Assembly: GCA_030737835.1 (NCBI GenBank)
Contig: CM060850.1
Coordinates: forward strand, 26,199,385-26,263,384
Length of the DNA: 64,000 nt
Source of the DNA: Acorus gramineus
Taxonomy: Eukaryota > Streptophyta > Magnoliopsida > Acorales > Acoraceae
Direction: 5' to 3'
Part shown: positions 4,893 to 62,692 of the stretch, piece after piece
How the letters are laid out: each line of letters starts with the position of its first letter
Numbering within the stretch: the stretch's first letter is position 1
Made by a program: the position numbers and the translations under genes
Notes under the pieces: generated by a model
Told to the model about the DNA's origin: nothing
Seen by the model: the letters and a program-made list of their open reading frames with translations, nothing else
Databases searched by the model: none

Positions 4893-6791
4893 TCACGCGC
4901 CGATCTCCCTTACAACTGAGCTTTGGGAACCACACAACACCCTACACTTAACCACCCCACCACCCAAATAAAACCCAGGCGCCACCATGATCCTCACCTC
5001 ACTCGCCGCTCCCCTCCTCCCCCTATCCCCCCCAACCACCACATCCTCCATAAAATCCCCTTCGAACCTCCTCCCCTTCTCCACCCTCAACACCCCCACC
5101 GCCGGGTGCACCGACCTACTCAACAGGTGCACCAACCAAACCCACTTCGCCCCCCCAAAGAACGCCTGCAACAACCCCTCCGGCCAGGACTTGTTCCACC
5201 CAAGCGTGCTCGACGCGATCTCGCTCATCTTCCTGTCGCAAAACCTACTGAACCCCTCACTGTAGTGCCTCGTCCCCTTGTTCAGCACCTCATCCCACGT
5301 CAGCCCCTTCAACGCCTCGTACGCCCTCCGATTCGCCTCGCTCTTCCGAACCGGGTCCAGCTCCCCCGCCTCACACCCCCCTCTCTCGAACCCGGGGGCC
5401 TCCATATCCTCATAGAACGCCCTGTTCATAAGTATGCCAATTATCTAAAAAAATGCGTATGCATAACGAATCTGCGTAAAAAAAAATATTTAAATTTAAC
5501 ATATATTATAAATTATATATATTTGTTATATTGTATGATTAATCACATGATATCTTATATATTAGTATTAAAATTTCTATATATAATATCTAAAAATTGA
5601 AAATACCATAAAATCTTATTTTTAATTTCATATTTTTCTACCGTGTTATTTAATTATCTAAATTAATATTTAAAAAATTGGATCAGTTCCAACACGTACT
5701 GAACAATTAAACAAAATGAAAAGATAACAAGCATTGGACCTAATGCAGACCCGTATTTAAACATATTAAAAAAAAAAACATATCTTACAAGATTAGTATC
5801 AAATCCAAATCTCAAAATTAATGTTCGTTTCGAATGATTAACGCATTCGTTCAGTTGACAGACTTACCTGTTCAACAGAGCCTCCAAATAGTACAGGAGG
5901 CTCTTCGGGTTCTTCGTCAGCGACACCTTCACTTCATACGGTTGGAGGTTCCCCGCGATCCGATCCAAAACCTTCCCCCCTCCGCCGCTCTGTCGGAGCT
6001 GAGCCGCCACCGACCGGCTCAGGTGCTTCACCGCCGCCCTCGCCTCCGACACCGCCCGGAGGAACGGCTCCACCACCGTGGGCGGCGGCGGAGACGGATT
6101 CAGTGAGGATCTGAGGCTGTGGCAGTAGGTCTCGAGATTGGAGAGCTTCTTTTCGAGGTCAGACATGGAGGTCTTCAGTCTAGAAACTTCCAGAACCGCC
6201 TCGTCCCTCCTGCGACTCGCCATTAGAAGCTTGTGAGAGAGCTCCGCCACCGCGAGCTTCCACTCCTCCTCCCGATTCGCCGCCGGAGCCGGCGCAGGCG
6301 CCGGCGAGGCGGAGGAGGTGGAGGAGCGGGGGCTCTTTCGGATGGAGGAGAAGATGGATTTGAAGATGGCGGGGCTGAATTTGGCGGCGGAGTCGACGGG
6401 GACGATGGTGATCTTGTCGCAGGAGGATGGACGGCAGAGATTGCAGGAGACGGAGAGGTCGGTGTCATCAGGGCCGTTGGAGCTGTGTCGTTTCTTGGGA
6501 GCCGTCGATGCGGTGGACTCGGGGGTTGGATGGAGTGGGGTTGGGTTGTGCCTGTGAGTGGTCGTCGCCGCTGATTCTATGTTGCTCTCCTCTTCTCCTT
6601 CTCTTTGATGTTCTTGAATCTGTTTTTGTTTTTTTAAAAAAGAAAAAATGAATAAAATAAAAATCATATCCTATAAACGAATGCGAAAATTAAATGTGTG
6701 GGAGACTTACAGGGGTGAAGAGTGGAGAGCGAGAAGGGCGAGGAGAGGTTCTTGAGAGAGGAGAAGAAGAAGAGGAGGAGGAGGAAGCCAT
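4893..6791 (-). CDS. DUF641 family protein, GIL1/IRK-interacting type
   Basis: Three minus-strand exons join in frame: 6791-6711 (27 codons, ATG at 6791-6789), 6619-5868 and 5421-4893 (TGA at 4895-4893), with GT-AG introns of 91 and 446 bp. The product is 453 aa. Residues 78-91 read DDTDLSVSCNLCRP, a block I recall from IRK-interacting protein; residues about 143-200 are a charged coiled-coil (EEEWKLAVAELSHKLLMASR and on), and 319-345 contain TWDEVLNKGTRHYSEGFSRF and CDRKM, the C-terminal signature of the GIL1/DUF641 family; EVRIMVAPGFY closes the domain. The N-terminus is Ser/Pro-rich. Arabidopsis relatives act in gravitropic light responses (GIL1) or bind the receptor kinase IRK. The ATG at 6667 in a longer frame is intronic. 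Which paralog it is remains unsettled. Confidence 0.88.
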
Positions 6792-30032: not shown

Positions 30033-30728
30033 ATCCTAACTAGGCCTGTCAACGGGTCGGGTCTGGGTGGGGTCGGGTCGGGGTGGACTCGGACCCCACC
30101 CGTGGAAAGACCCAGTCCGAGTCCAACTCAGGACCCAGCGGGTCCGGGGAAATGTGGACCCGGACCGGGACCCGGGTCGGGTCCGGGTCCGACCCGACTC
30201 GGATAGTTGGGTAAAAAAAAAAGAAAAAGAGAGAGGAGCTCATGTATTTGTTTGCCTTATCATTCTATTCAAAATTTTTGTAATAAAACATTATTGTTAA
30301 TGAGACTATGTTTGAATATAATTTTATACAATTCAAAAGAAGTAAATGAATTATTAAACAACATCCAAACAATAATCACTAACATAAAAAACATATTAAC
30401 CTAAATAATAAACATAACTAACCTAAACAACATTCAAAACAATATTAACCTAAACAACATTCAAAACAATAAACACTAAGGCTGCGTTTGGTTCGGCTGA
30501 AATTCAGCACTTATTAGACTTAATTCGGAATTTTTCAGCACTTCTGTGTTACAAGTCTGTTTGGTTGAGGCCCAATTAACTGCTGAAATTTATCCTCTTT
30601 TGGTATATAAACCCTGAATTTTTCAGCTCATTCAATGTCACTTTTTTTTTCCGCCTCCGCATTATGTTGTTTCGTCCCGACGTGAAAAGACTATCCTACC
30701 CCCACTACTTTGATTTATTTACAAGTCC

Positions 30729-30736
30729 TATATAAT
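30729..30736 (+). promoter_or_regulatory. TATA box carried by the captured gene
   Basis: TATATAAT is followed about 15 bp on by a CT microsatellite typical of plant leaders. It lies 493 bp before the DUF1685-like start codon at 31229, with the minisatellite in between. A long 5'UTR would be needed. Confidence 0.4.
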
Positions 30737-30839
30737 CCCATTTCACCTCCTCTCTCTCTCTCCTCGGGCATTTTTTTTTTCTCCTCGTCGAAACCAAAGA
30801 CCCCTCACAAACCCTAATCGGCGGACCTCCTCCTCGGTC

Positions 30840-31090
30840 GCGGACAACCACTCCTCGGTCACGGCCCGGCCCCTCCACCTTCACGGCACCTCCTCCCGAC
30901 ACCAAGCAACCCCTCCTCGGTCACGGCCCGGCCCCTCCACCTTCGCGACACCTCCTCCCGACACCAAGCAACCTCCTCGGTCACGGCCCGGCCCCTCCAC
31001 CTTCGCGACACCTCCTCCCGACATCAAACAACCCCTCCTCGGTCACGGACCGGCCTCTCTATCTTCGCGGACCTCCTCCTCGGTCGCGGA
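30840..31090. repeat. minisatellite, 60-62-bp unit, about 3.5-4 copies
   Basis: 'CTCCTCGGTCACGGCCCGG' recurs at 30851, 30913, 30973 and, slightly changed, 31035, each followed by CCCTCCACCTTCGCGACACC-like sequence. It lies in the presumed leader of the DUF1685-like gene. Confidence 0.9.
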
Positions 31091-31228
31091 CCCACCTCCT
31101 CTGTTGCGGACCAGTCCCTCTGACCTCCACCCTCCGACGTTTCGACCTCCAATCTCCGACCAAAAGGTAAAACCAGGTGTGCCTCCCACGCCCTCGACGA
31201 CGAAGAAGAGCTAGAGCAACATCTGACC

Positions 31229-31855
31229 ATGGATTCCTCCGAAGAAGGCGACGACGCCGACGGAGAGCACTCCGACAAGAGGCACGACGATGAAGAAGAC
31301 GACTCCGACGAGGCGGAGGCGCCGGTGACGCCCGGGAGGATCCGGCGGCCCTTGCTCCTCCCGCGGGAGAGGGAGTACTCGAGCGAGACCGATTCGTCGC
31401 GGATTTCGAGGCGGCGGAGGACGACGTACGGTCGGAGGGCGTGGGAGGCGGCGGAGTCGTCGTCTTCGGATTGTCGGGTGGTGGCGCGGCCGAGGCTGAG
31501 GAAGTGCTGCGGCGGCGGCGACGAAGGGGGGAGGTTGTGTATGAACATAGAGGAGGTGAAGGCCTGTCGCGATTTGGGGTTCGAGATCCCCTTTGATTGG
31601 ACGGTCGAGATTGCGGGATCCCCTGTCGCGATTGAGACCAGCAGCGGCGGAGAGAGCTCCCCCATCTCAAATTGGCGGATCTCCAGCCCTGGTGAGCCTC
31701 TCTGAGACCTCTGATTGTTGTGAACCGTTCGATTTCAATCAATACATGAAAAAGTGAGGGTTTTTTTTTTTTCTTGTTTCTTCAATGCAGGGGACGATCC
31801 GAGAGAAGTGAAGGCGCGGCTCAAGGTGTGGGCACAGGCGGTGGCGCTCGCCTAA
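31229..31855 (+). CDS. DUF1685-like protein gene inside the Harbinger-like element
   Basis: Exon 1 is 31229-31691 and exon 2 is 31791-31855, joined across a 99-bp GT-AG intron (GTGAGC donor, CAATGCAG acceptor) within a glycine codon, giving 175 aa. The ATG has a good plant context (ACCATGGA). Residues 2-31 are very acidic (SSEEGDDADGEH...), followed by an Arg-rich part to 73. From about 105 the sequence reads MNIEEVKACRDLGFEIPFDW, then SPISNWRISSPGDDPREVKA and a C-terminus ending KVWAQAVALA. The SPGDDP..VK.RLK.WAQAVA ending is what I recall from plant DUF1685 proteins of unknown function. The frame is unbroken, so capture looks recent or the copy is under selection. It may instead be transcriptionally silent. 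Confidence 0.7.
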
Positions 31856-31859
31856 ACTT

Positions 31860-32660
31860 TGTTGCATCAGATATCTTCATTTGTTGCATCTCTAAATGTG
31901 GTCTTATAGGTCATGGGAGGAGGGGTTGATAAGTAAGAAAAGTTTTGATGGTATGGGTAAAATCTGTGTCTGAAATGCATAAACTTGTTTTTTTTAAGTT
32001 GCAGTTAATTATTCTTCACACTGTTGGATTTATCTGGAAATAACTTGAAATCTCAACATTCTTTTTTGTTTACTTTCAGAACTTTTTCTTGCCTTGTATC
32101 ATTTTAATTTGTCAATATGTTTCTTCAAAATAATTTCTTCTAATGAATGTGAATGCCATGTGTTTATGGAGAATGTAACAAGTTGAAGTTTGTGTTCTCA
32201 TAAAAAGTGAAACTCATGTTGAAGAGATATATTTAAAAAGGGCTCAATCATCATTGTGTCGATTGTAAGCTTTCTCTAATGCTCAATGTAATTGTTATTG
32301 CATGTCTAATGTGCTGCCTCAGATGATGTTTGATTCTAAGAATGGTAACTCAGTTACTGGAGAGGAACAATCTACTGGGAAACTATATGACATTTCACAT
32401 TTCACAAAGTCACTCCTTAAAAAACCGAGATCAGTGATAATTCACCAGGCTTCATTCACTCGAGGCCTCAATTTTCCACATGCGTTCAATGTTTTTGGAA
32501 TGTGTCAAGTTTAAAATGAAATGGAGTTGTAATATTTATTTCACTCTCTTCATGGTCCGCAACAAAGATTTGTGCTTTCATGGTCTCATTTTAATTGTCA
32601 GTATTTCTCATGACTGTTATTGCAATGAATGATCTCATATTCAATTATTTATGTGGGTAG
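31860..32660. other. spacer between captured gene and Myb/SANT fragment
   Basis: AT-rich DNA containing the likely 3'UTR of the DUF1685-like gene and a short plus-strand frame at 32302-32514 that I cannot assign. The sequence just before 32664 ('TTTATGTGGGTAG') could be an acceptor into the Myb/SANT frame. Confidence 0.35.
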
Positions 32661-32663
32661 ATT

Positions 32664-32942
32664 ATGGATGCCAAAGCTGGAAGGGCAGTATGGACCCCCG
32701 AAATGAAAAAAAAGTTCATTGATTTATGTCTAGAACAAATCAAATTAGGTGGTCGGCCTGCCGCCAATCTGAAAACATCAGCATGGGCTAAAGTGAGAGT
32801 GGAATTTAACAAGCATTTTGGGGTTTCATATGATCAAAGAAAGTGCAAGAATTTTTGGGACATGCTGAAGAAACAATGGAATGCCTGGCATAAGTTGATT
32901 TGTTTGAATCAATGTAATAAAACCAATGGTTTTCTGTTCTGA
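32664..32942 (+). pseudogene. Myb/SANT-like (PIF/Harbinger ORF1-type) fragment
   Basis: The 92-codon frame reads RAVWTPEMKKKFIDLCLEQI, then GGRPAANLKTSAWAKV, FNKHFGVSYDQRKCKNFWD and MLKKQWNAWHKL. The spaced tryptophans and the K..KN.WD.LKK.W..W pattern fit the Myb/SANT-like DNA-binding domain (Myb_DNA-bind_3) found in PIF/Harbinger ORF1 proteins and related plant genes. After HKL the frame changes to unrelated residues and stops, and the downstream part usually present is missing, so it is a remnant. Its presence independently supports the PIF/Harbinger call made from the ends. Confidence 0.7.
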
Positions 32943-33494
32943 AACTATCATTTCCTATTGAGGGTGTTTCCATTTTTAACACCATATGAAATAATGTGAT
33001 TCTGATAACATTGATTTTTCTGTTGTGTTTACTCAGGTACTAGCTTTTTAGAGAAGATGATATTCATGGAACACGGCATGATTGATGGATTGCTGCTTAA
33101 ACAATGATTTCTGGCATTACAATGGAAAAGATGATGCCCGTGAGATTAATAAATTTTGCTGTAGCTTTTTGAAATCTTTAGTTCTCTTCTGTTAATGCAA
33201 CTCTTGAACATCAGAAATGATGATAACATGCTACTGTTATTGGAGACACTATTGTTTTGTGATAATTGGGAGACTTTCCAAGTGATTCAATTATGGTGAT
33301 TTATGATTTAGGATATCAAATTCATTGATAGATTTGTAAATTTCATGTTTTCATTATATGGCTTGAATTTTTATTAATGTTTGGATATAATATGGTGAAG
33401 TGTATTTCCATGTTTATCGATAGAAAAAAAAAAAAAAATGATCAGTGCTTGAATTGTAGAATGAAATGATTTGCAGCCATATGATTACTATTGG

Positions 33495-33810
33495 GTTTAA
33501 GTTTGTGTAATATTCACTCTTTAAAGTGGGACATATATTTCGGGGAACAAATCAATATTGTTGAAATAGTTAAAAAATAAGCATGTTTTTTAAATTTTCA
33601 CGTTTGTGAAATATTCACTCTCTAAAGTAGGACATATATTTCGAGGAACAAATATATTTTTCAAATAGTTAAAAAATAAGCACGTTTTTTAAATATTCAA
33701 GTTTATGAAATATTCACTCTCTAAAGTGGGACATATATTTCGAGGAACAAATTCATATTTTTGAAATAGTTCAAAAATAAGCATGTTTTTTAATTATTCA
33801 ATCAAACATC
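33495..33810. repeat. tandem repeat, ~100-bp unit, 3 copies
   Basis: 'TATTCACTCT' followed by 'AAAGTGGGACATATATTTCG' and 'AAAAAATAAGCATGTTTTTT' occurs at 33511, 33612 and 33711. It lies just inside the right end of the Harbinger-like element. Confidence 0.9.
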
Positions 33811-34428
33811 AAAATAACATTCAGTACTTATTAAATAGACCAAAATACCCTTCTAATAAGCACTACTATTAAGTGGTGAACCAAACACACTTATCTGAAT
33901 AAGTACTTATATTTTCCGCTAAACCAAACAGTATTCTGCATAAAACATTCAGCACTTATACAATCAGCACTGAATAATTCAACACTTAAAATTCAGCATT
34001 CAGCCGAACCAAACGCAGCCTAACTTATTCTAAATAATAAACATAAATCATGCAACAAACTAATTAATCATACAAATTCAAAAGCTAATAAGTTAATTGT
34101 CCAAAATAAATCGATTTATAGGCTTGTTATGATTATGATTTATGAACTTGTAGATACAAAAATAAGTTAAGTAAGAAATAAAATTATGTATCAACTAATA
34201 CTAATGGTCTTATAATATATGAGCATATATTAAAAAAAACAGTCGGGTTCAACAGGTCCAACGGGTCGGGGCGGGGTGGACCAGGACCCGACCCGTTTGT
34301 TTGTTCGGGTCCGCTGGGTCGGGTCCAACTCGGGTCGAGTCCAAATCGGGTCGGGTATATTACACGTGTAATCGGGTCCCGGTCGGGTCTGGGTCTAGAC
34401 CCGACCCGTTGACAGGCCTAATTCTAAC

Positions 34429-35152: not shown

Positions 35153-35703
35153 AAAAACAAAGGGAATCCATACAAACCCCTTAAATTTGACTGAAATCCA
35201 TATAACCCCCTAACTTTCTTAAAATCCATATAACCTCCTGAAAACACCTACTAAATCTAAATAACCCCCTGAATAAACTTTTTATTAATAGATGATGAAT
35301 ATTTTGTGAATATTTTGTTTGGTTAACCCTGACTGAAAACACAATATACCAAAAAACCACTACAACGTATTAAAAATGCGAAAAATCATATAAAAATGAT
35401 GATTTTACCCTCTGTAGATATATTACAAAACCCTATTCATAGGGATAAAATAGTCATTTATATAAGATTTTTCACATTTTTAACACATTGTAAAGTTTTT
35501 TTGATATGTTGTGTTTTCTATCAGGGCTAACCAAATATAATATTCACAAAATATTCATCATCTGTAAGCGTAAATTTTATTCAGGGAGGTATTTAAATTT
35601 ATTAGGTATTTTCAAGGGGTTAAATGGATTTTAAGAAAAGTTAAGGGGTTATATGGATTTTAGTCAGTTTAGGGGGGTTATATGGATTTTTCCCAAAAAC
35701 AAA
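35153..35703. mobile_element. Mutator-like foldback MITE, 533 bp
   Basis: AAAAACAAA at 35153-35161 and 35695-35703 is a perfect 9-bp duplication. The element begins GGGAATCCATACAAACCCCT and ends in the complement of GGGAAAAATCCATATAACCC. The arms repeat 'ATCCATATAACCCCC' phrases and pair across almost the whole length around about 35430. It has no gene. Confidence 0.8.
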
Positions 35704-36610: not shown

Positions 36611-37081
36611 AATAAAGAAGATATTTTTATTTTTAAGTCCATGTAAACATGTCTATTTAAAGATCGGTCCCTCATTTCTTAATATTTTTTTTTTAATCCC
36701 CATATTCAATCTATTTGGTTTTTAGTCCCTCCGTCAACCGTCAAACGTCCGTTCATACACCGTTAATTTATGAAATGTGATTTTATTTTTAAATCCTTAT
36801 AAACTATATTATTTAGTGATCAATCACTGTAAATTATGTTATTTAGTGATTAGTCCTTGTAAAATATGAAGAAGGGAGGGACTAATCACTAAATAACATA
36901 GTTTACAGGGACTTAAAAATAAATCATATTTCACAAATTAACGGTGTATGGACGGACGTTTGACGGAGGGATTAAAAACCAAATAGGCGGTTGAATATGG
37001 AGACTAAAAAAATATATCAAAAAGTGAGGGACGGATCCCACATGTTTACAGGGACTTAAAAATAAAAATCCCAATAAAGAA
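36611..37081. mobile_element. Mutator-like foldback MITE, same family as 11046-12350
   Basis: AATAAAGAA at 36611-36619 and 37073-37081 is a perfect 9-bp duplication. The 453-bp element is almost a pure palindrome. Both arms carry the 'TTTTTAGTCCCTCCGTCAA' and 'CCGTTCATACACCGTTA' blocks that also occur in the long inverted repeats of 11055-12341. It is a shortened derivative that lost the spacer. Confidence 0.85.
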
Positions 37082-38372: not shown

Positions 38373-41300
38373 ATGCACAGATCGGGGGCGGCCATGGCGT
38401 GGAACGTTTTCAAGTTCTGCACGGCCCTCCGCGGCCTCGGCTCGATCATGATCCTCCTCGTCCTCGGCGTCGTCGGCGTCACCTACTACGCCGTCGTCGT
38501 CACCAACTACTTCCCCGCCCTCCAGTTTGGCGCCTCCTTCGAGTCCTCCCTCGTCGCCTTCCTCGTCCTCCTCCTCTTCCACTGCCTCGTAATCCCCCCC
38601 CCCCTCGTGTTTGATTTTGTGGATTTGTTTGGAATGCTTTGATTTTGATGGTGTAATTGTTTTGAAAGCTCAAAAGATGCGATTTTTTAGAAACCCGTTT
38701 GTCCAATTTGAGATGACATGTTTAATTTCTTTCAATTAGATCAAGTTCAGGACAATTATTCAAAAAAAAAAATTGTTTATCTTCTATTGGTTTTGTTGTA
38801 GTTGGCGATGTTGCTATGGAGCTACTTTTCAGTGGTCCTTACAGACCCCGGGAGCGTCCCGCCGAGTTGGAGGCCCTCCGTTGATGAAGAGAGAGGGGAG
38901 ACAGAGCCATTGGCGGGTTCGGAGTACAACGGTGCAGTGATGGGGGTCCAGCAGTCGATGGCCATCGGAGACCCCACAAATATGAGGGTCAGGTATTGCC
39001 GCAAGTGCAACCAGTTGAAACCCCCTCGCTGCCATCACTGCTCTGTCTGTAAGCTATCCTTAAATTTGTTCATTTAGCCATCGTTTATCGTTTGTTGTTC
39101 TGTTTATATATATGTTGAAGTTTTTGTTTTCAAGGTGGGCGTTGCATATTGAAAATGGACCATCACTGCGTTTGGGTTGTTAATTGCGTCGGGGCCTTGA
39201 ATTATAAGTATTTCCTTCTTTTCCTGGTACGTTGGGTCTGTCATTCGATCTAGTTTCTAAATAATTTTCTTGTTTTGCTGATATGTGTATATACTGTGGT
39301 ACGTGCTTGTTTATTGTGGAGATTCGATTTGTCATTTTAGGTTTTGTTTAACATTGCTGATTATGTAGGCGTGATTAATTGAAGTATAATTGACAGTTGG
39401 TGAGGGATGAAGCCTTGAACTGCATTTGATGTCTCACACCTCTTGGGTTATACTCTCAATCTGCGTCTGATCATGATGAAGTGTTTCTATAAGATAAGAT
39501 CTGTAAAATCAATCTACATGGCATAAAAAGTACTTTTCACACTCTCTGATTCATCTATGCACTTTGTAAATTGATAGAACAAAGAGGACTAAAAAATTTG
39601 ATGCATATGGAACAATTCTGATAAAATCACCTCCAACCACAAAATCCGCTGTAGGCAGTCTATTGATGAAGCATTCCAGAGGATTAGGATGCCTGGGTGT
39701 ATTATAGATGCAAAAGGATATGGCATGGGATAACATGAATGCAGAATTCTAATGAATGAAAAAAAATCGTAATCTTATGGATTCAGTACATGACTTTTTT
39801 TAAGCTCATTTATATATCCAGCACAAAATTTGACATTGCCAAAATGAGTGTAGGTGTGCAATTGAACAAATTGGAGCTTTTATATCTAGGCCAGACTAAA
39901 ATGACTCCAAAATCTCACTAAATCTTGAAATATATATCTTGTTTGTTCCCTTGTCCATGCATGGGCATTGAGCCCAATTTTACTTTCCTATTAAAGAATT
40001 GTTTTATGCTTGAGACGGACACTGTCTAACTGTCTACTACTGTGGTGTTACTCCTGTCAAGGTTCTCATTGCACAAGATAGCACTTCCACAACATACTGA
40101 CCTCTCCAAAGTTCACGATTCCCTTGCCTTTATAGCTTTTCAGTCACCAAATGCCATTCAAAATACCTCACAGAACCAAGGAGTAATTTTATATGGTCAA
40201 CTCAAGAAGAAAGATCCAAGTTACTCATTTTGGTGTTGTACATGCAAACCATTTTTTCATATCCCTCCCTGGAGATGATGCTTTGTCAAAATCTACTTCT
40301 GTTGGTGAACAGAGGAAAAATTGACTCCCAAATGTTTCAGATCTGTTCTAACAGAGATCACACCTTAGATGGTTGATTTGACCATGAAATTTTCCACACC
40401 ATCCCATCCATCCTCTCAGAAACCTACACTTTTTCTTAACCGACGTAAACATTGTTATTAGTCATGCGAGGAAGAAATAGTTCCATTATTTATGTCCTTT
40501 TTGGTTGATAATGTGTGTATCATTTTATATTCTTCAAAATTCAATGAACATATGCACAATAGGTGCTAGAAAGTAGCAACAATTCTGATCCACGGCTGGA
40601 GAAGTCCCTAGAGACAACTGAGTGGGCTGGACTGCATCCTCAATTATCCAGAGAGGACAACTCTAAATCCATTAGAATATGATGAGGAATTGTGGGAATT
40701 CTCTCGACTCTTTCATCTGCAACACCCTGCTGATCTTTAATCAAAGCTTGGAAGAATTCTGGTCATGTTTGATGGGGTTGGATTCAGGAACTACCTATTG
40801 TAATCTGCCTTCTCTTTGAATACTGGTTTCTTTCCATTCAGTAAGCAATGAGAGGGACTGCTTAATTGATTAAAATCCTAAATGCCTTCCAGGGTATAGT
40901 ACCTTTGGCATGAAGCCAAACCAAGCTAGTTTTAGAATCTGGTATAATCCATGCCCTTGTGGCTCCAATCTACTGGCACAGTTCCAGTAAGGATACCTGT
41001 AACTTTGATCGACTCAAATTTTGTCATAGCAGCCAGACCAAGCAAGTAATAACTGCCACTGTCAGGACCTTACTTGAACATGATCTTTTCTAAGGGCTTG
41101 TAAATTGCATCCTTTAACAAAGGAGTCAGTCAACAAGGTCTGGTTGATGCATTCAGGACTGTGTGATCTGAGCGTGAGTAACAGCTGTGATTCATAATTG
41201 GGTTATTTGGGTCAACTAGCCATGGAGGATCACTCCCATCCATCTGGGTGGAAGGGTCACATGTTGTCTGACAGACCCCAACACATTTTGTTGCAAATCG

Positions 41301-53020: not shown

Positions 53021-54984
53021 TCAGCAAAGGTCGTCCATGGTACATAACATATTGGGTGATTGTGTTGATTGTTTGCTCCCAAGAGGAATTTTTTTGACAA
53101 CTGATTTCAATGGCCTCAGTAAACAATTAAGAATCCAGAGTGAACTTAACAAATAAAAATAGAAAAAATGATAAGTCCAACCTATGTGGAGCACGATCCC
53201 TAGTTATCACGGATTTTTTTACACATAAAATATACAATCGCCTGTTGAAATACACACTGTTATACGAATTGAAATATAATAGTATACACTGGAAAACAAT
53301 GGTATATACTTTTTTTGAAAAAAATAAAAAAATTGTTGCCCCATTCATTGGGATAAAGACTATATATTGTGATATAACAATATATTTATATAAATATTTA
53401 ACTTTTTTCCCAAATAATCTCCTAAAAAAATCTGCAACCCTATTTATAGGCGATTTGCATTAATTATTAGCTAATTCTATTAATTGGGTGCACAACTAAT
53501 ACTACTTTATCATAGTCATCCGATATTGATACAACAGATGCATAACCCAACTCCAAACAATCTATGGGCTAATGCCTCAACACTTAACAGATGCTATTCA
53601 TGTGTCAAAATTGAAGTAACTTCATATCTAACCCGGATTACATGATAAGCCTTCAAGGAGAGAGCAATTAACAATGCCTTTATTTGTTCCAACATTTTGA
53701 ATAGCATGGTCTAATGTAAATCTATTGTAAATCAGGTGCTAATCCCCTGACCTTTTGTACCTTCGTAACTAGTTTTGCAGTAATACATTTATTACACAAA
53801 AAATACCTATACAAAGTTTTTTAACAATGCTAGGCTAATCGAATGTTGGGTGCACGTGATTGAAATTTGTACAGACCAATGAAGTCTGAAGTCCAAAACA
53901 TATCACATGAAACGGACAGGAGAATAAACGGGTCTGAATTATGATGGGGGGATGTATTCAGTAGCCTTTCCTTTTTTCTTCTTTTGTTTCTTTTTTCTCC
54001 TCCTCTGGTTCCTAGTTGATGCTTTCTCTGTAATAGGAATTGAATATGTTGGCACAACAGGAGATAAGATTCCACCATCACATGCATTGAGTCACATGTC
54101 ATCCCTCTCTCAAATATCAAAATGTATGTTTGGTTCCATGGAAACATGTCTCTTTGTTGGGTTATGTTGTTCCATCCAGACATTCTATATTTTTATGGTG
54201 CCATACATTGTCCACGTACACTCCATACTCTTCTCCCACCTCTCCCATTTAATCCCTTATTTTCAAATTTTGCCTAAAGATAGGCCTCTTTAACACCCAC
54301 GGTTAACATTTAAGAAATAAAATAATATTAGAGACATATTAGAGAATAATATGTTTTGATGTCTTTAAAATATGTCTATTTTCATAAAAAAAAAAAAAGA
54401 ATTGACATGTTTCATTTAACAAAACATATACTTTGTTAGCAAAATGAGATTGCACATTGAACCATATATAAAAATTGCGACGAAACCACCATGTTCATCA
54501 CATCTTCAAAGCAGACATGCAATTGTATATATTGGGATCCCTACATGCGCAATGGAGACAGTATTAGATAAAACAAAGAAGAGGAGAGACCCATCTCAAA
54601 ATATTCCCACTTGTTGGCAATCCGGGTGGCAAAACTATGCAACTAGGATTCCTTGTAGCGTGGTCGGCCCTCTCTGTATTGCTCTATTGATTGCTTGGTG
54701 TCCCTTCTCATTCATTCTTTTATTTGATCTGTTCTCTCATGCAGTTAGGATGGTTGTTTTGTTTCGAGGATTTATTCTTCTTGGGAGAGGAAAAGCATTG
54801 CAACTTCTGATTTTACATGGTTCAATTTTAAACTTTGCCTATGTTGCTCGCTTATGATAAATTGCATAAAATTGAAGAGACATCAGCTAATGGTTTATGT
54901 GCTGTTGCATCTCTAAACACTCATTGTTCTAACTGAAAACGAAGTTGAGATTTCTCTGGATGCTAAACTTATATACTATAGAAC

Positions 54985-57302: not shown

Positions 57303-58011
57303 ATGGCATGGTCAGCAGAGAATGCAACGAAAGCCTTCCTCACAACCTTAACAATGGTACATAATGAACCACTGTTACTTTAATCAAGCATGCCCCAATA
57401 TTGGTTTCCTTCATTAGTATTGATTTTCATGATCTGTATCACAACAGGGAAACAAAACCAAGGTCCCCGACGTCGCCGAATACGTATCCGCAATGGCGGC
57501 CGGAAACTCCGCCAAGCTTATGGTGGAGGCCTGCAGTGGCGCCGCGGGCCCCATGACGCTCGCGCTCGTCGCCGCCGCCCGCCAGACAGGCGGGCGCGTC
57601 GCGTGCATCCTCCGCGCGCGTGAGGACCTGCGCGCCTCCAGAGAGGCACTCGGCGCAGAAGCGGATAATGTGGAGTTTGTCTTTGGGGACGCTGCGGGGC
57701 TGTTGTCGGGTGACTACGCGCGCGCGGACTTCGTGCTTGTTGATTGCAAGCTGGAGGGGAACGAGCGCGTGTTCGGGGCGGCGCAGAAGGCGATCGTGGT
57801 TGGGTATAACGCGTTCTGCGATGCGTCGTGGTTGACGAGTGGGCCGAGGTCGGATTTGCTGCCCATTGGAGATGGGTTGAGGGTGTGTCGGGTGGTGCGG
57901 CCGGCGGCGGTGGAGAGGAGGAGGAGGTGGGCTGTGAAGGTGGATGAGTGTACTGGGGAGGAGCATGTGTTTAGGATCATGGCTGCACAGAGGAAGGGAA
58001 TCAGAGCATAG
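57303..58011 (+). CDS. DUF1442 family protein, tandem copy 1
   Basis: Exon 1 is 57303-57356 (18 codons) and exon 2 is 57448-58011 (TAG), with a 91-bp GT-AG intron in phase 0; the product is 205 aa. It starts MAWSAENATKAFLTTLTM, continues KVPDVAEYVSAMAAGNSAKL, and has GPMTLALVAAARQTGGRVAC, ADFVLVDCKLEGNE and AIVVGYNAFCDASW. This matches the plant DUF1442 family, which begins M(V/A)WSPENA and has a Rossmann/methyltransferase-like pattern; no enzyme activity is established to my knowledge. There is no signal peptide. The coding exon is very GC-rich while its surroundings are AT-rich, as in many monocot genes. Copy 2 is nearly identical over the core, so the duplication is fairly recent or gene conversion has acted. 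Confidence 0.9.
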
Positions 58012-61990: not shown

Positions 61991-62692
61991 ATGGCATGGT
62001 CAGCAGAAAATGCAACAAAAGCCTACCTCACCACCTTAACAATGGTACGTTATTAACCTCTCCAAATCTATACTCCAAAATCATATTCCAATTTTGGTTT
62101 CTCATGATCTGTGTCACAACAGGGAAACAAAGCCAAGGTCCCCGACATCGCCGAATGCGTATCTGCAATGGCGGCCGGCAACTCCGCCAAGCTCATGGTG
62201 GAGATCTGCAGTGGCGCCGCAGGCCCCATGACGCTCGCGCTCGTCGCCGCCGCCCGCCAGACAGGCGGGCGCGTCGCGTGCGTCCTCCGGGCGCGTGAGG
62301 ACCTGCGCGCCTCTAGAGAGGCACTGGGCGGCGCAGAAGCGGATAACGTGGAGTTCGTCTTCGGGGACGCTGCGTGGCTGTTGTCGGATGACTACGCGCG
62401 CGCGGACTTCGTGCTTGTTGATTGCAAGCTGGAGGGGAACGAGCGCGTGTTCGGGGCGGCGCAGAAGGCGATCGTGGTTGGGTATAACGCGTTCTGCGAT
62501 GCGTCGTGGCTGACGAGTGGGCCGAGGTCGGATTTGCTGCCCACTGGAGATGGGTTGAGGGCGTGTCGGGTGGTGCGGACGGCGGCGGTGGAGAGGAGGA
62601 GGAGGAGGTGGGTTGTGAAGGTGGATGAGTGTACTGGGGAGGAGCATGTGTTTAGAGCCAAATCTTCACAACATAATGGAATCATAGCTTAG
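61991..62692 (+). CDS. DUF1442 family protein, tandem copy 2
   Basis: Exon 1 is 61991-62044 and exon 2 is 62123-62692 (TAG), joined in phase 0 across a 78-bp GT-AG intron; the product is 207 aa. It differs from copy 1 at scattered positions: Y for F in exon 1, DIAEC for DVAEY, VEICSG for VEACSG, an extra Gly in EALGGAEADN, DAAWLLSDD for DAAGLLSGD, and an extra Arg in the VERRRRR stretch. The last dozen residues are quite different (RAKSSQHNGIIA against RIMAAQRKGIRA). Both frames are intact, so both genes could be functional. The role is unknown, as for copy 1. Confidence 0.9.

Follow-up and report, generated by a model that had tools for sequence, protein, structure and literature searches.

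Can a PIF/Harbinger transposon carry away a plant gene with its intron still in place? The question is raised by a 64,000-nucleotide stretch of the Acorus gramineus genome (assembly GCA_030737835.1, contig CM060850.1, positions 26,199,385 to 26,263,384 of the forward strand; hereafter the window, in whose own numbering all coordinates are given), where a 3541-base-pair (bp) unit at 30480-34020 is delimited by perfect 22-bp terminal inverted repeats and holds, between these inner ends, an open two-exon frame of 175 codons plus a stop, referred to below as the cargo. We consider this unit to be, most probably, a non-autonomous plant PIF/Harbinger element that took up a host gene (a Pack-PIF, or transduplication); the reading is based on the perfect 22-bp ends, the TAA repeated on either side, a shortened Myb/SANT frame of the open reading frame 1 (ORF1) type, the two-exon frame and the lack of a recognisable transposase. 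An earlier reading made from the letters only (the sequence-only reading) had proposed a Harbinger-like transposon carrying an intact two-exon gene with its promoter, and that outline stands for a PIF/Harbinger-type unit with a complete-looking, intron-bearing gene; it does not stand for the family name given to the gene, for the promoter or for the novelty that was claimed.

The two ends are sharply drawn. The left repeat (30480-30501, plus strand) and the right repeat (33999-34020, minus strand) agree at 22 of 22 positions, exact as previously described and two bp longer than the 20 bp then given, and the TAA duplications proposed with them are present on both sides (30477-30479 and 34021-34023, features without strand), three being the only flank length, among lengths of 1 to 11, at which the sides match. 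With up to three mismatches allowed, the 22-bp end is found twice in the window, at these two sites, and not at all in 100 shuffles. A 3-bp duplication of TTA or TAA is the rule for PIF elements (PMC2528002; PMC8903248). Short terminal inverted repeats are likewise as expected of PIF/Harbinger, 22 bp being slightly short of the 25-50 bp usual in Harbinger elements (PMC2572040). Assignment of the inner ends to hAT, CACTA or Mutator was rejected because the matching flank is only 3 bp long. Mutator elements, Pack-MULEs included, need a duplication of 9 bp. For hAT and CACTA the duplications are 8 bp and 5 bp, respectively (PMC8903248).

A 92-residue frame inside the unit (32664-32942, plus strand) matches the Myb/SANT family PF12776 of Pfam with 63.2 bits, against a cut-off of 23.6 (E 4.8e-17), the match ending at position 74 of the 96 in the profile. 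The frame is a probable ORF1 remnant, as had been suggested from the letters, and supplies in shortened form the ORF1 with a Myb/SANT-like domain that is looked for in PIF/Harbinger. Domains of this type also occur in ordinary plant genes and so are not exclusive to the superfamily. The ORF1 of Ping carries a GT1/Myb-like/SANT domain, and PIF/Harbinger movement requires both ORF1 and a DDE transposase (PMC9921582). In a Pfam scan, none of the 22 frames of at least 35 codons that overlap 31860-34020 gave a transposase family; no transposase being recognised, the inner element is therefore non-autonomous. This absence bars autonomy, and does not bar membership of PIF/Harbinger as a non-autonomous element. 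Sub-cut-off Pfam matches in frames of the element (VacA2, zf-LITAF-like, TPR_NAA35, Sporozoite_P67 and GOLD_2) were taken as chance, and a comparison of the Myb frame with solved structures gave seven weak matches (best E 0.15) and was uninformative.

The cargo opens with an ATG at 31229, in the context ACCATGG. Exon 1 (31229-31691), a 99-bp GT...AG intron (31692-31790) and exon 2 with its stop codon (31791-31855) follow one another on the plus strand, and the frame continues in phase across the splice, which makes the 31691/31791 junction of the sequence-only reading correct. Openness of exon 1 alone is weak evidence for a gene, since stops were also absent from 144 of 5000 Markov resamples and from 18 of 2000 simple shuffles. 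The exon has a strong three-base pattern: the guanine plus cytosine (G+C) fraction at third positions is 0.818, the other two frames giving 0.578 and 0.569, an excess reached by none of 5000 Markov resamples. This three-base pattern speaks for coding DNA without deciding the strand, because the same G+C-rich column doubles as the third position in an antisense frame at 31024-31734 (G+C 0.738). That frame and a second one at 31059-31781, with 236 and 240 codons, respectively, overlap exon 1; the former has no Pfam match up to E 1 and the latter none up to E 0.01. We favour the sense strand as the probable coding strand, on account of the frame that remains in phase across the GT-AG intron and of a weak match to the family DUF1685.

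The DUF1685 match needs to be read with its scores. Over 12 residues, two sub-stretches of the cargo match this family (PF07939) at 11.4 and 12.2 bits (E 0.29 and 0.16), under the Pfam gathering cut-off of 21 bits, and the full-length cargo protein matches nothing in Pfam at E values as high as 10. DUF1685 is the sole family listed for the two sub-stretches, and at these scores the cargo does not qualify as a member; when exon 1 is extended from stop to stop (31124-31705), two other families are listed, both far under their cut-offs. The label DUF1685-like, given to the gene previously, is thus reduced to a lead. Plant proteins of the DUF1685 type presumably have a C-terminus similar to that of the cargo.

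The cargo could instead be long-standing content of the element family itself, or no sense protein gene at all, in which case no host gene was captured. The sub-threshold family match would fit such an account, and so would a three-base pattern that suits the antisense frame 31024-31734 equally well. It is harder to reconcile with a sense frame in phase across a GT-AG intron, with two long antisense frames that match nothing in Pfam, and with the course of G+C along the unit, which in steps of 120 bases runs at 0.58-0.72 over 30840-31679 and at 0.23-0.40 from 31920 onward, as though AT-rich transposon DNA had received a genic block. We therefore hold this account to be improbable, and retain the reading of a captured host gene. 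The presence of the intron indicates that the cargo arrived as DNA and not via spliced RNA; the earlier claim of capture from genomic DNA agrees with this as to the route, the capture event itself being one that we infer. The unbroken frame suggests a gene that is either young or kept, with a putative transcript and protein.

Upstream of the cargo, the word TATATAA at 30604-30610 (plus strand) may be a TATA box; it stands in AT-rich sequence adjoining the transposon end, about 125 bp from that end, and we take this sequence to be the transposon's own. The word occurs again at 30729-30735 (plus strand), with a CT-rich tract after it, and a GC-rich tandem repeat of 62 bp in 3.8 copies (30845-31079, plus strand; the period is not a multiple of three) lies in the presumed leader. 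No ATG is found over 30740-31228, which is uninformative, as 1257 of 2000 resamples were also without one. The sequence-only reading had placed a promoter here: the two TATATAA words are present and a captured promoter resting on them is possible, and the words alone do not bear it out. A bacterial promoter scan of the region was set aside as inapplicable to a plant. The cargo might be an entire host gene that brought along its promoter, leader and intron and would still be transcribed, spliced and subject to selection; PIF/Harbinger would then be duplicating whole working genes and not fragments. To us this appears unlikely.

The surroundings of the unit, which the sequence-only reading did not describe, bear on whether it moved as one piece. 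It sits within a hAT-like element at 30041-34420, whose left end (30041-30064, plus strand) and right end (34397-34420, minus strand) are a 24 of 24 inverted match in blastn. The 8-bp flanks of this outer element, ATCCTAAC at 30033-30040 and ATTCTAAC at 34421-34428 (neither with a strand), are identical at 7 of 8 positions, an 8-bp duplication being the hAT rule (PMC8903248). GC-rich GGGTCGGGTC-type repeats lie near both ends, and without the inner unit the outer element would measure 836 bp. Because the 3.5-kilobase unit lies inside the hAT-like element, it very likely entered as a single insertion, and the nesting gives an order of events, with the hAT-like element first and the gene-carrying element second. 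The occurrence of the ends as separate solo sequences had been named beforehand as grounds for giving up the sequence-only reading; nesting of the whole unit speaks against it.

The same nesting could be turned round, with the outer hAT-like element as the one that captured the gene (a Pack-hAT) and the TAA-flanked inner ends as secondary. The 24-bp outer ends and their flanks, alike at 7 of 8 positions, do surround everything, and Pack-hATs are on record (PMC8903248); the genic block, however, lies inside the inner ends, and outside them only the GC-rich end repeats and AT-rich sequence were seen. We find this very improbable, and return to an inner PIF/Harbinger element as the carrier.

Several results weigh against that reading, besides the column that exon 1 shares with an antisense frame. 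The absent transposase (22 frames scanned, 31860-34020) leaves the superfamily unfixed, and the 8-bp flanks of the hAT-like element mismatch at one of their eight positions. Beyond the 22 bp the inner ends have no convincing similarity: a local alignment scored 22, which 13 of 500 shuffles reached, and a shorter comparison scored 19, a value that 59 of 1000 randomly paired window stretches attained. The AT-rich sequences either side of the inner unit are alike with a score of 30, attained by a single one of 1000 such random pairs, and the same score was reached by 80 of 1000 Markov resamples of these very flanks; their likeness is not significant by the latter measure and may be taken as only suggestive. 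Nor did relics of internal ends, as might be left by a fusion of neighbouring elements, emerge inside the unit, where the best candidate agreed at 13 of 22 positions versus 13-15 in 60 resamples. The lack of clear similarity beyond 22 bp would also suit a resident gene caught between two independently inserted Tourist-like elements, whose ends were never mobile as one unit, but each end would then need a partner of its own, of which the window holds none at up to three mismatches, one matching TAA stands on each side, and a resident gene leaves the enclosing hAT-like ends unexplained, so that this arrangement, made unlikely by the nesting, is the least credible of those considered.

For a PIF/Harbinger element that took up a host gene, the course of events may be pictured as follows. 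An ancestor element would have picked up a segment of genomic DNA that included a host gene and its intron; an autonomous relative would have supplied transposase and ORF1 in trans, recognising the ends; and ends, cargo and ORF1 remnant would have moved as one unit into a resident hAT-like element, duplicating TAA. One proposed route of capture has two neighbouring elements mobilised as one together with the DNA between them (PMC8903248), and the sequence is neutral on this neighbour-fusion route, which it neither supports nor excludes.

Gene pick-up by PIF/Harbinger is already reported, and the unit described here is a good example and not a new phenomenon. The sequence-only reading, which held capture by this superfamily to be much less documented than by others, was partly wrong and overstated the case, as precedents date from 2008 (PMC2528002) and 2022 (PMC8903248). 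In the first, grapevine Pifvine-3 elements have a long 5' region, of up to 3.5 kilobases, that belongs neither to ORF1 nor to the transposase; these 5' regions mostly match genome sequence, exons and introns included, and some are common to several copies. The resemblance to our unit extends to the PIF type and to duplications that are mostly TAA or TTA, whereas the grapevine PIFs of the same report keep ORF1 and transposase, here shortened and unrecognised, respectively (PMC2528002). The second precedent is the annotation of Pack-PIFs in maize and rice, also non-autonomous PIF elements with coding DNA, most PIFs there having TTA or TAA (PMC8903248). Its worked maize cluster consists of 72 elements with a mean of 535 bp and a gene piece of 163 bp, to which four add a piece of 58 bp (PMC8903248); unlike these, the present element has 3541 bp and a two-exon frame. 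In animals, the Harbinger Turmoil-1 of C. elegans also captured two exons with the intervening intron; it differs in that the capture lies within inverted repeats of 760 bp, a transposase is present and a mutation affects the captured 5' splice site (PMC2572040). Rice Pack-MULEs share with our unit host-type coding DNA between inverted ends (PMC8903248), and differ in superfamily and in the 9-bp duplication that is absent here. Among the titles and abstract openings listed in searches of an openly licensed library we recognised no PIF/Harbinger element bearing both an entire gene and that gene's promoter, which is weak evidence of absence. Among the published examples compared, as far as their available texts go, the complete-looking, intron-bearing frame is the larger and more complete-looking cargo.

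Searches beyond the window added little. Searched as DNA with one base left free, the inner end had no match in viral_contigs and a single match in genome_contigs, on a contig labelled planctomycete, which was treated as chance; that contig has 49-53% G+C over 8000 bases, and the outer side of the match is without TAA or TTA. Searches for relatives of the cargo protein gave 27 pattern matches in genome_contigs and six in viral_contigs, and those for the Myb frame six in viral_contigs, none of them confirmed; as neither collection would be expected to contain plant DNA, the results carry little weight. Neither the inner-end sequence nor the cargo C-terminus was found as printed text in the openly licensed literature.

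The remaining features concern the unit's right part, which has a 101-bp tandem repeat in three copies (33499-33801, plus strand), and the rest of the window. The window has the look of nuclear DNA from a plant, to judge by a plant U3 small nucleolar RNA gene and by GIL1/IRKI and DUF1442 domains within it, both of them plant families. The U3 gene (RF01847, 90.1 bits, full model length) is at 41064-41277, and the GIL1/IRKI C-terminal domain (PF24994, E 1.6e-9) in a minus-strand frame at 4893-5444. Two DUF1442 frames (PF07279), at 57433-58008 and 62108-62689, stand in direct order with 174 of 194 positions identical and are probably a recent duplication. A minus-strand frame at 53830-54192 reaches 14.1 bits (E 0.033) against PEX11 (PF05648), short of the cut-off of 23.8. 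Two sequences resemble miniature inverted-repeat transposable elements, one at 35290-35563 with perfect 25-bp inverted arms about 225 bp apart and a short one at 36835-36900 whose inverted arms, perfect over 22 bp, are separated by 22 bp.

Transposons bearing whole intron-containing genes are a route of gene duplication at the level of DNA, and the Acorus unit offers one well-delimited case whose order of events can be read from the nesting. If copies with unbroken frames exist, PIF/Harbinger elements would be able to spread complete genes.

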